DNA from: Apilactobacillus kunkeei
GTDB taxonomy: Bacteria; Bacillota; Bacilli; Lactobacillales; Lactobacillaceae
NCBI RefSeq assembly: GCF_001308195.1
Contig: NZ_JXDF01000014.1
Location: forward strand, 1-64,000
DNA: 64,000 nt
Direction: 5' to 3'
Each line of letters opens with the position of its first letter. The first letter of the stretch is position 1. Position numbers and translations under genes: made by a program. Shown one piece after another: positions 51,321 through 55,006 of this stretch. A model generated the notes under the pieces. It saw only the letters and a list, made by a program, of their open reading frames with translations, had not been told where the DNA came from and ran no database searches.

Positions 51321-52367
51321 ATGGCTGATGAACGAAAAGCGGCTCTAGATGGTGCCTTAAAACGAATTGAAAAAGAATTCGGTAAGGGTTCAATCATGAG
51401 AATGGGAGACCGTGGAGATACTAGAATTTCCACTGTACCAACAGGTTCCTTAGCACTTGATAATGCATTAGGTGTTGGAGGATTCCCACGAGGAAGAATT
51501 GTTGAAATTTATGGACCTGAAAGTTCAGGTAAGACTACCATCGCGCTACAAGCTGTCGCAGAAGTACAAAAACAAGGTGGAACAGCGGCATACATCGATG
51601 CTGAAAATGCTTTGGATCCAGTATATGCTACCAACCTAGGGGTAAACATTGATGATTTACTTCTATCACAACCTGATACTGGTGAACAAGGTTTACAAAT
51701 TTGTGACGCCCTTGTATCAAGTGGTGCCATTGATATCGTAGTTGTCGATTCAGTTGCGGCTTTAGTACCTAGAGCTGAAATTGAAGGTGAAATGGGTGAT
51801 GCTCACGTTGGTTTGCAAGCTCGTTTAATGTCACAAGCACTACGTAAGTTATCTGGATCAATTAACAAGACTAAGACTATAGCTCTATTTATTAACCAAA
51901 TTAGAGAAAAAGTTGGTGTTATGTTTGGTAACCCAGAAACTACACCTGGGGGACGTGCTCTTAAGTTCTATTCAACTATCAGACTAGAAATCAGAAGAGC
52001 TGAACAAATTAAAGATGGTACTGACATTATTGGTAACAGAACTAAGATCAAAGTTGCCAAGAATAAGGTAGCTCCTCCATTCAAGCGTGCCGAAGTTGAT
52101 ATCATGTACGGTCAAGGTATTTCACAAACTGGTGAATTAGTTGATATGGCCGTTGAACAAGATATCATTGGTAAGTCTGGTTCATGGTACTCATACGGTG
52201 AAGAAAGAATTGGTCAAGGTCGTGAAAACGCAAAACAATTCTTACAAGATAATCCGGACAAAATGGAAGAAATTAACAAAAAAGTTCGTGCTGCATATGG
52301 CATGGGCGAAGATGATTCTGAATCAGGTGAAGCTGAACAAACAAGTTTGGACACTGGTGAAGAATAA
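51321..52367 (+). CDS. recA: Recombinase RecA
   Basis: Forms filaments on single-stranded DNA for strand exchange and stimulates LexA self-cleavage. The 348-residue protein has Walker [10 protein letters not shown], Walker [12 protein letters not shown], and loops L1 (EIEGEMGD) and L2 ([22 protein letters not shown]). The C-terminal tail is acidic, as usual. GGGAGGTC precedes the ATG; a LexA box and terminator make it a single-gene unit. Confidence 0.98.
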
Positions 52368-52447: not shown

Positions 52448-52560
52448 ATAGTAATGTACATTGAACTATTTATTTAGTTCGCAAAATGACTAATAAATCA
52501 TTCAATGCGCAGTTATCAAAAACTTAATTAAATTAGATGATGTGGAGGTGCAATAAGCCT

Positions 52561-54126
52561 ATGACTTATTTTTTACCTATGATCCTCGCAATCATCGCTG
52601 CTTTTGTAGTTGGTATCTCTGTGGGAATGTTTTCTAACAAGAAAATTGTTGATAAGAAATTAACAAAGGCCCACATGAGTGCACAAGATATTTTGGAAGA
52701 TGCTAAACGACAAGCTCAAACCTCAGCTAAGGAAGCAATTCTTGAAGCTAGAGAAAAGAGTAACCATTATCGTTCAAACATCGAAAAAGAAATTAAGCAA
52801 AGACGAATTGAAGTTCAACGACAAGAAAATCGTCTAATTCAACGTGAAGATTCTTTAGATCGTAAAGATGATGCTTTTGATAAGCGTGAAGATTCATTGA
52901 ATAAGCGTGAAGAAAAGCTTAATTCAAACCAAAAGAAACTTGAACAAAAGCAACAGCAAGCTGATATGCTAGTTAAACAACGTCAAGATGAGTTAGAACG
53001 TATCTCTTCACTTTCTCAAGAAGAAGCACAAGAGCTAATTATTAACGAAACAAAGAAAGAATTAGCTGACGAACGTGCCAAAATGGTTAAAGATAGTTAT
53101 AACCTAGCTCGTAAGGAATCTTCTGAGAATGCCAAGAATCTAGTTATTGAAGCGATTCAACAAAGTGCTGCTGATATCGTATCTGAAACCACAGTTTCAG
53201 TTGTTAACCTACCTAACGATGATATGAAAGGTCGTATCATCGGACGCGAAGGTAGAAACATCAGAACCTTTGAAACCCTAACAGGAATTGATTTGGTTAT
53301 TGATGATACTCCAGAAGCAGTTGTGCTAAGTGGATTTGATCCAATTAGAAGAGAAGTTGCCAAGATGGCACTTGAAAGCCTAATTAAGGATGGTCGTATC
53401 CACCCAGCTCGAATCGAAGAAATGGTAGATAAGAGTCGTCGAGAACTTGATGAAAAGATTCAAGAAATTGGTGAAGAAACAGTATTTGATTTAGGAATTC
53501 ATTCATTGAGTCCTGAAATGATTATGATGATTGGTAAATTGAAGTTCAAGATTTACCATGGTCGTAATGTTTTGAGCCATTCTATTGAAGTTGCGAAGTT
53601 GTCAGGTGTCTTAGCCGCAGAATTAGGCGAAGACGTCGTATTAGCAAAACGCGCAGGATTGTTGCACGAAATTGGTCGCTCTGCAGATAATGAAACAGAA
53701 GGTTCTCACATTGACCTTGGTGTTGACTTAGCCAAGAAGTTCAAAGAAAGTCCAGTTGTTATTGACTCAATTGCAGCCGATAATGAAGACAGTGAACCTA
53801 AGTACATCATTTCTGAATTAGTTAATATCGCAAACAAGATTGCGATTGCTAGACCAGGTGCAAAGAGTAAATCTCTTGAAAGCTTTGTTCATCGTCTAGA
53901 AAGTTTGGAAACAATTAGTGATAGCTTCGAAGAAGTAAACAAGAGCTACGCAATTCAAGCCGGACGTGAAATTAGAGTGATTGTAAAACCAGAAAAAGTT
54001 TCTGATACTCAAGCAGTTGTTTTAGCTAGAGATATTAAAAATAAGATTGAAGAGGATATGGAATATCCTGGTCATATCAAGGTTACAATTATTAGAGAAG
54101 TAAGATCAATCGAATATGCAAAATAA
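52561..54126 (+). CDS. rny: RNase Y homologue with degenerate HD active site
   Basis: RNase Y is the membrane-bound endonuclease that starts mRNA decay in Firmicutes. This 521-residue protein has the normal layout: membrane helix (3-24), long coiled coil (about 30-190), KH domain (GRIIGREGRNIRTFE) and HD domain. His340 (LSHSIEVA) and His369 remain, but the HD pair is HE (Glu370), the later HH pair is Asp407-Asn408 (SIAADNEDSEP), and the final metal Asp is Asn425 (NIANKIAIARPG). These changes should impair metal binding. ATG at 52561 follows GTGGAGGTG. The rest is well conserved, so it is under selection, perhaps as a scaffold. Confidence 0.9.
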   Translation: MTYFLPMILAIIAAFVVGISVGMFSNKKIVDKKLTKAHMSAQDILEDAKRQAQTSAKEAILEAREKSNHYRSNIEKEIKQRRIEVQRQENRLIQREDSLDRKDDAFDKREDSLNKREEKLNSNQKKLEQKQQQADMLVKQRQDELERISSLSQEEAQELIINETKKELADERAKMVKDSYNLARKESSENAKNLVIEAIQQSAADIVSETTVSVVNLPNDDMKGRIIGREGRNIRTFETLTGIDLVIDDTPEAVVLSGFDPIRREVAKMALESLIKDGRIHPARIEEMVDKSRRELDEKIQEIGEETVFDLGIHSLSPEMIMMIGKLKFKIYHGRNVLSHSIEVAKLSGVLAAELGEDVVLAKRAGLLHEIGRSADNETEGSHIDLGVDLAKKFKESPVVIDSIAADNEDSEPKYIISELVNIANKIAIARPGAKSKSLESFVHRLESLETISDSFEEVNKSYAIQAGREIRVIVKPEKVSDTQAVVLARDIKNKIEEDMEYPGHIKVTIIREVRSIEYAK

Positions 54127-54205: not shown

Positions 54206-55006
54206 ATGAGAATACTATTTTTAGGTGACGTAGTAGGTAACTTGGGGGTAGAGATGGTAAGCAAGTATCTACCAATTCTAAAAAGAGACTACAAGCCACA
54301 GGTAACGATTGTAAATGGTGAAAATTCAACATCATTTGGTCGCGGAATTAATAAAAAAGTATATAAACAAATTATGAGTGCAGGGACTGACGTAATTACA
54401 TTAGGAAACCATGCATGGAATAACGAAGAAATCTTCGATTTTATCGATGATACCAAAAAATTAGTACGTCCTCTTAATTATCCTGGTAAGGATGTACCGG
54501 GTAGTGGATATACAATTATTAACGTTAATAATAAGAAATTAGCGGTTGTTAATTTACAAGGAAGAATCTTTATTGATCCAATCGATGATCCTTTCCAAAA
54601 GATTGACGAACTTATCAGTGAAATTAAAAAAGAAGCGGATGCAATTTTTGTTGATTTTCACGCTGAAACAACCAGTGAGAAGAAAGCAATGGGGATGTAT
54701 CTAGATGGTCAAATTTCTGCGATCGTGGGAACTCATACACATGTGCAGACCAATGATGACCAAATTCTAAAAAACGGCACAGCGTTCATTTCTGACGTTG
54801 GAATGTGTGGACCATTTGATAGTGTCTTAGGAATGAAGTATGAAAATATCATTCATCGTTTCATTACCCAACGTCCAACTAGATTTGAAGTTGAAGAAAA
54901 GGGACGTGGAATCGTCTCCGGATGTGTTATCGATTTAAGAGATGATGGCACTGCCAGATCTATTGAAAAAATATTAATTGATCCAAATCACCCATATAAG
55001 GGTTAG
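54206..55006 (+). CDS. ymdB: Metallophosphoesterase YmdB (2',3'-cyclic nucleotide phosphodiesterase family)
   Basis: The 266-residue protein has the TIGR00282 metal motifs in order: [30 protein letters not shown] and GTHTHVQT. B. subtilis YmdB is a phosphodiesterase that affects biofilm decisions and is linked to RNase Y. The metal ligands all look intact. TTG at 54194 lies within the ribosome site TTGAGGA, so ATG 54206 is the start. Follows rny after its terminator. Confidence 0.92.

Follow-up and report, generated by a model that had tools for sequence, protein, structure and literature searches.

Can a ribonuclease Y that has lost much of its metal site still cut RNA, and if it cannot, what does the cell use in its place? 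In many Firmicutes RNase Y is a main initiator of mRNA decay, and the way in which the KH domain, the HD site, and dimerization work together is unsettled. The question is raised by an rny gene of Apilactobacillus kunkeei, which lies in the stretch of 64,000 nucleotides that we analyzed (the window). An earlier note, made from the letters of the window, had read a degenerate HD active site in this gene. It proposed that the protein is a non-nucleolytic membrane scaffold or KH-domain RNA binder, or else that the site uses altered metals. Here we call this gene copy A.

The Metal Site of Copy A

Judged by sequence, copy A is an RNase Y by descent and not by its catalytic site. It is recognized by the Pfam models RNase_Y_N, KH_1, and HD and by NCBIfam TIGR03319 (Table 1). 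The frame is intact, as the earlier note had it, within an ORF at 52537–54126 that encodes 521 aa from its probable start, the ATG at 52561, 12 bases 3′ of the GGAGG at 52544. The KH loop reads GRIIGREGRN, with GxxG present. The suspect stretch, 53578–53835, is exactly residues 340–425. Within it, the seven metal-ligand positions read HHEHDNN, so that four of the seven are changed (D370E, H407D, H408N, and D425N); His369-Glu370, Asp407-Asn408, and Asn425 are all found where they had been read.

That these positions bind metal had been proposed from the Bacillus subtilis enzyme, and three comparisons agree with it. Of 52 single-copy RNase Ys (40 from Lactobacillaceae and 12 from other Bacilli), 51 have HHDHHHD as their seven ligand residues, and the remaining one has HHDHSHD. 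All seven ligands are likewise kept in 15 of 15 distant homologues from Clostridia, Ignavibacteria, Chlorobiota, Neomarinimicrobiota, and other groups, read by eye. Finally, an HD-domain profile aligns the first His and the HD pair with those of PgpH (PDB 4S1B), and the later ligands also line up, but in stretches that score below zero. PgpH holds two Mn ions through H514, H543, D544, H580, H604, H605, and D648 (PMC8177086). Since the ligands of RNase Y follow one another just as these do (H, HD, H, HH, D), the positions changed in copy A are, by alignment, metal-ligand positions. In the B. subtilis enzyme the HD motif is H368/D369, and single mutations there are reported almost to abolish activity (PMC10303841). 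The changes are not sequencing errors, because the same HE at 369–370 and the same Asn425 occur in all 16 Apilactobacillus genomes searched.

The HD fold itself probably stands, with four of its seven ligands changed. An AlphaFold model of residues 201–521 (mean pLDDT 84.6, pTM 0.65) matches PgpH 4S1B with Z 11.1 over 114 residues at 2.8 Å and 2PQ7 with Z 11.7 over 141 residues at 4.9 Å. Its best match is the HD domain of a glycyl-tRNA synthetase (GlyRS) at Z 12.5, with GlyRS, PgpH, and others near-tied by Z. Foldseek returned one match below E 0.001, also a GlyRS, with an rmsd of 14.9. Given the many near-tied VIA rows and a helical-bundle warning, we use these fold matches as support only.

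Table 1. Copy A, its parts, and its neighbors in the window
Feature	Position	Strand	Basis
recA, upstream neighbor, ancestral rny locus	51321..52367	+	named by sequence recognition; homologue flanks A loci
GGAGG, likely ribosome-binding site of copy A	52544..52548	+	read in sequence
Copy A of RNase Y (rny), 521 aa	52561..54126	+	TIGR03319, 701 bits, cut-off 454.35; start by ribosome site
N-terminal membrane helix, ~residues 5-22	52573..52626	+	hydropathy; 40/40 A copies
Coiled coil and linker, residues 25-204	52633..53172	+	RNase_Y_N, Pfam; 180 residues in 40/40 A
KH domain, residues 205-275	53173..53385	+	KH_1, Pfam
KH GxxG loop GREG, residues 228-231, intact	53242..53253	+	
HD domain, residues 331-432, fold probably kept, metal site degenerate	53551..53856	+	HD, Pfam; AlphaFold model
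His340, ligand position kept	53578..53580	+	alignment
His369 kept, Glu370 replacing Asp (HD motif)	53665..53670	+	alignment
His383, ligand position kept	53707..53709	+	alignment
Asp407-Asn408 replacing His-His	53779..53784	+	alignment
Asn425 replacing Asp	53833..53835	+	alignment
C-terminal domain, residues 433-521	53857..54123	+	88% of constant positions kept in both copies
ymdB-like gene, downstream neighbor	54206..55006	+	named by sequence recognition; homologue flanks A loci

A Second RNase Y with an Intact HD Site

The earlier note had suggested searching the genome for a second rny, and the search was fruitful. Another contig of the same genome encodes copy B (G000:C6:17057-18592), a further RNase Y of full length that is 37% identical to copy A. 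Copy B carries LLHDIGK, SHHGD, and TADAIS and has all seven HD ligands. Its KH loop is eroded, reading GKDEQH where copy A has GREGRN, with GxxG absent (GKDE). Because the HD site of copy B is intact, an RNase Y active site is still available to the cell. Both copies are present in 16 of 16 Apilactobacillus genomes searched, and the named loci of this honeybee-associated genus at 85–100% identity include those of A. kunkeei, A. nanyangensis, A. apinorum, and A. micheneri.

To judge from the other RNases surveyed, copy B is likely to be the cell's endonuclease of the RNase Y type. Each of 19 genomes of the family has two RNase J genes, and RNase E/G exceeds its cut-off in none of the 19, with one weak fragment in G040. 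PSP1/YaaT, a partner of RNase Y in B. subtilis, gave no match in 19 of 19 Lactobacillaceae genomes, this one included, while controls in B. subtilis and Lactococcus lactis were positive.

The surroundings of copy B were compared over 40 loci, with neighbors named by sequence recognition. A 5′-nucleotidase/metallophosphatase-like gene lies downstream in 27 of the 40, convergent in the rows shown, and an alpha/beta hydrolase-like gene lies upstream in 26. At one Apilactobacillus locus (L030), a transposase-like ORF, 446 aa by eye, starts 61 bases 3′ of copy B. A plasmid search with copy B gave 15 records with matches, at <60% identity.

Distribution of the Pair

We surveyed 301 genomes from 40 genera of the family for matches at E 0.001. 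By hand count, every one of the 83 genomes sampled has at least two RNase Y matches in nine of these genera, here designated g1 (Apilactobacillus), g5, g14, g16, g21, g26, g32, g34, and g36. From these nine genera, at least 51 genomes hold both copies at full length (16 Apilactobacillus and 35 others). Searched with copy B, 33 of 33 genomes from the other 30 genera have a single full-length RNase Y; one of them, G027, shows an extra fragment at E 9e-4 beside its full-length gene. Apparent second copies in g8, g11, g17, and g30 were loose matches that disappeared when the same genomes were searched with copy B. An order-wide search at E 1e-40, in which up to six candidates per genome were scored, gave a single match in each of the 209 genomes from other families and two matches in 6 of 37 within the family (hand count). 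A class-wide family search includes weak fragments and was left out of the copy-number counts.

A different condition is seen in g29, where 7 of 7 genomes (G043, G078, G107, G132, G155, G177, and G197) have no RNase Y match at E 0.001. The five of these genomes tested have no RNase E/G and two RNase J genes. This genus is apparently without either decay-initiating endonuclease.

Reciprocal Erosion of the Two Copies

Of 133 proteins collected, 112 were used for the trees and the counts. With 20 more (12 from other families of Bacilli and 8 single-copy proteins of the same family) they form a set of 132 rows. Left out were 20 near-identical Apilactobacillus rows and L090 (g18), which is cut by a contig end and whose motifs are intact. 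Of the 16 Apilactobacillus B copies, 14 were retrieved.

Over 40 A–B pairs, the two copies are eroded reciprocally, and this pattern is solid. The A copies keep the KH GxxG in 40 of 40 and all seven HD ligands in 3 of 40; at least one ligand is lost in 37, at least two in 33, and at least three in 27. The B copies keep the five core ligands in 40 of 40 and GxxG in 16 of 40. Six of them have Ser for the first His of the HH pair, as does one single-copy protein. Single-copy RNase Ys keep both GxxG and the core ligands in 52 of 52 and all seven ligands in 51. Profile scores follow the same division. The mean KH score is 152 bits in A, 58 in B, and 152–154 in single-copy proteins, and the mean HD score is 142 bits in A, 167 in B, and 189–190 in single-copy proteins; the coil scores 87 in B vs. 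225 in A. At positions that are at least 95% constant in single-copy proteins, A keeps 97% and B 51% in the KH domain, A keeps 75% and B 91% in the HD domain, and each keeps 88% in the C-terminal domain. The membrane helix is predicted by hydropathy in 40 of 40 A and 40 of 40 B copies on stop-to-stop frames, which pass in all 80; with chosen start codons, 13 B copies and 2 A copies out of 40 each fall below the threshold. The membrane helix, coil, and C-terminal domain are kept in both copies and the KH domain in A, parts that the earlier note had called well preserved in the one gene.

Reciprocity is incomplete in g5, g16, and g21, where the B copies keep GxxG in 6 of 6, 6 of 6, and 4 of 5, respectively. 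Three A copies have all ligands despite the presence of a B copy: L091 (g5) and L093 and L100 (g21). It is possible that the intact A copies of g5 and g21 are living intermediates, early stages that were kept. Across the 40 pairs, a more eroded HD domain in A goes with a more eroded KH domain in B (Spearman 0.61), and the same holds over the nine genus means (Spearman 0.68), both values being uncorrected for descent.

Two candidate signs of a heterodimer were rejected. Equal coil length in A and B is uninformative, since the same 180 residues are found in 37 of 40 single-copy family proteins; four shorter B coil lengths are an effect of start-codon choice. Charge complementarity of the coils is inconsistent over the 40 pairs.

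Descent and Selection of the Two Copies

In the full-length tree, the B copies form one clade (support 99) that lies beside long-branched single-copy genera, and the A copies lie on one side of a branch with support 60. Genus orders in the A and B trees broadly agree. A restricted tree, built from the mid, HD, and C-terminal columns with ligand columns removed and 17 near-copies left out, groups the A copies (support 97) and places B beside g3/g6. Neither free tree, full-length or restricted, recovers A and B as sisters. When A and B are constrained as one clade, the likelihood is higher by 8.3 (p-AU 0.67). A single duplication is therefore allowed and favored by these trees, short of proof. 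One old duplication in the ancestor of the nine genera, followed by vertical descent, would be the simplest history. Gene order separates the two copies: recA and/or ymdB adjoin A in 40 of 40 loci and B in 0 of 40. Among 32 single-copy loci with flanks, one or both of these genes are present in 22 and neither in 10.

Mapping the substitutions on a tree, as the earlier note had advised, places the losses on opposite sides. If regain is disallowed, the full-length tree requires three or more losses of core ligands, every one of them in A, and two or more losses of GxxG, every one of them in B. The chance that three of three losses fall on A branches is 0.03 by tree length, which is not tiny.

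Selection acts on both copies. We computed dN/dS from pairs with a gene dS of 0.1–1.5 (for example, 31 of 36 for Apilactobacillus A; none for g21 B). The ratio is <1 in every domain of every set, with a maximum of 0.69 in the coil of B in g26, and the earlier statement that the gene is under selection thereby holds. Pseudogene decay of A is rejected on this result and on an open frame in 40 of 40 loci. Within A, the HD domain has a dN/dS of 0.03–0.17. The ratio of HD dN to KH dN, which is rough with a gene-wide dS of ~1, runs from 2.4 to ~10 in A (six genera) and from 1.0 to 1.7 in four single-copy sets. For B it is ~0.5 in Apilactobacillus (14 pairs) and in g5 (one pair), 0.85 in g26 (three pairs), 2 in g14, and 3 in g16 (two pairs each, with few changes). 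We infer that the HD domain of A is relaxed yet still constrained, as would be expected of a structural or interaction role.

A Proposed Two-Part RNase Y and Its Alternatives

We lean, by a little, toward a reading of these sequences as duplication, degeneration, and complementation that led to a two-part RNase Y, in which A would bind RNA and B would cut it, probably as a hetero-oligomer. On this reading, rny was duplicated long ago in one lineage within the Lactobacillaceae, and each copy then shed functions that the other kept. Copy A still has the anchor, coil, KH domain, and C-terminal domain, but its HD metal site is gone; copy B, at another chromosomal site, still has the anchor, coil, HD site, and C-terminal domain, but much of its KH domain is eroded. 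Dimers of RNase Y, and perhaps higher oligomers, are reported to assemble through a parallel coiled coil and also, according to AlphaFold models, through the C-terminal domain (PMC9775385). The A and B chains may pair through these same two parts, so that the KH domain of A would hold the RNA and the HD site of B would cut it. Neither chain alone would then be a full RNase Y. Whether the hetero-oligomer is obligate, with RNA binding by the KH of A and catalysis by the HD of B necessarily on different gene products, we consider evenly balanced.

The earlier proposal of a scaffold or KH binder survives in part. A KH loop kept in all 40 A copies, dN/dS below 1, and the repeated loss of core ligands all agree with it. 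However, A need not have a wholly new job, because copy B supplies an intact HD site in the same genome.

The most serious alternative, possible though on balance doubtful, is that A and B are two separate proteins. Copy B would work alone as a homo-oligomeric nuclease, its RNA recognition changed or moved to another surface. Copy A would be a membrane-bound KH scaffold, decoy, or brake, holding RNA or partner proteins without cutting. The same A/B sequence pattern would be expected, and the GxxG kept in B of g5 and g16 is readily accommodated. In B. subtilis, a reporter that is lowered by active RNase Y went up when an inactive form was overproduced, and the inactive form seems to interfere (PMC10303841); this fits competition, and it also fits shared complexes. 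Against separate proteins, the erosion of HD in A is correlated with that of KH in B across pairs, again uncorrected for descent, and the anchor, coil, and C-terminal domain are kept in both chains.

It is improbable that the HD domain of A has been reused, independently of B, as a non-metal domain that binds RNA or a ligand. Its still low dN/dS would suit such a role, as would the best fold match of the model, the GlyRS HD domain, which is not known to be a phosphohydrolase; yet this match is near-tied with PgpH and others. Moreover, few A-specific substitutions are common to the A copies, no new site is obvious, and the ligand replacements differ by genus: Glu-Asp-Asn-Asn in Apilactobacillus; Arg340, Glu370, Tyr383, and Gly407 in g26; Tyr407 with Glu or Gly425 in g14; Tyr383, Gln407, and Ala408 in g16; and Ala370 in g36. 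These replacements also make it very unlikely that copy A still cuts RNA by using metals in an altered way, the second suggestion of the earlier note, for although Glu, Asp, and Asn can bind metals and are the residues found in Apilactobacillus, the A copies of other genera have Arg340, Tyr383, Gly or Gln407, or Ala370 at the same positions.

If the two-part reading is true, the pair is a natural separation-of-function experiment, one that would show a KH domain working for an HD site on a different chain. Three questions become testable with it: does the KH domain act in trans, is a single HD site enough for a dimer, and does A direct where B cuts? The pair also bears on annotation, since the recA-linked gene annotated as ribonuclease Y in nine genera probably does not encode a nuclease.

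Relation to Known Systems

No paper about a paralogous or split RNase Y was listed in searches of an open-access library that covers few subscription journals, and no chain is named RNase Y among the 3 and the 16 Protein Data Bank sequence matches. Several known systems nonetheless invite comparison. The RNase Y (Rny/YmdA) of B. subtilis and Staphylococcus has the same membrane helix, coiled coil, KH, HD, and C-terminal domains; there the KH and HD sites are in one gene, whereas here they are spread over two. PgpH (PDB 4S1B) shares the HD fold and the seven-ligand dimetal site, the positions of which are changed in copy A; PgpH acts on c-di-AMP, whereas copy A is without four of the seven ligands.

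The history that we favor resembles subfunctionalization by duplication, degeneration, and complementation, in which two copies degenerate in complementary ways (PMC2213666). The difference is that here the process would have acted on the domains of one dimeric bacterial enzyme. The nearest known parallel to the A/B pair is RNase J1/J2 of Firmicutes, likewise two paralogous RNases of which one has a different active site, and these are reported to interact in B. subtilis and Staphylococcus epidermidis (PMC7864078). The RNases J have another fold, however, RNase J2 keeps some activity, and the passages compared describe no reciprocal loss of an RNA-binding domain (PMC7864078), the feature that sets the A/B pair of RNase Y apart.
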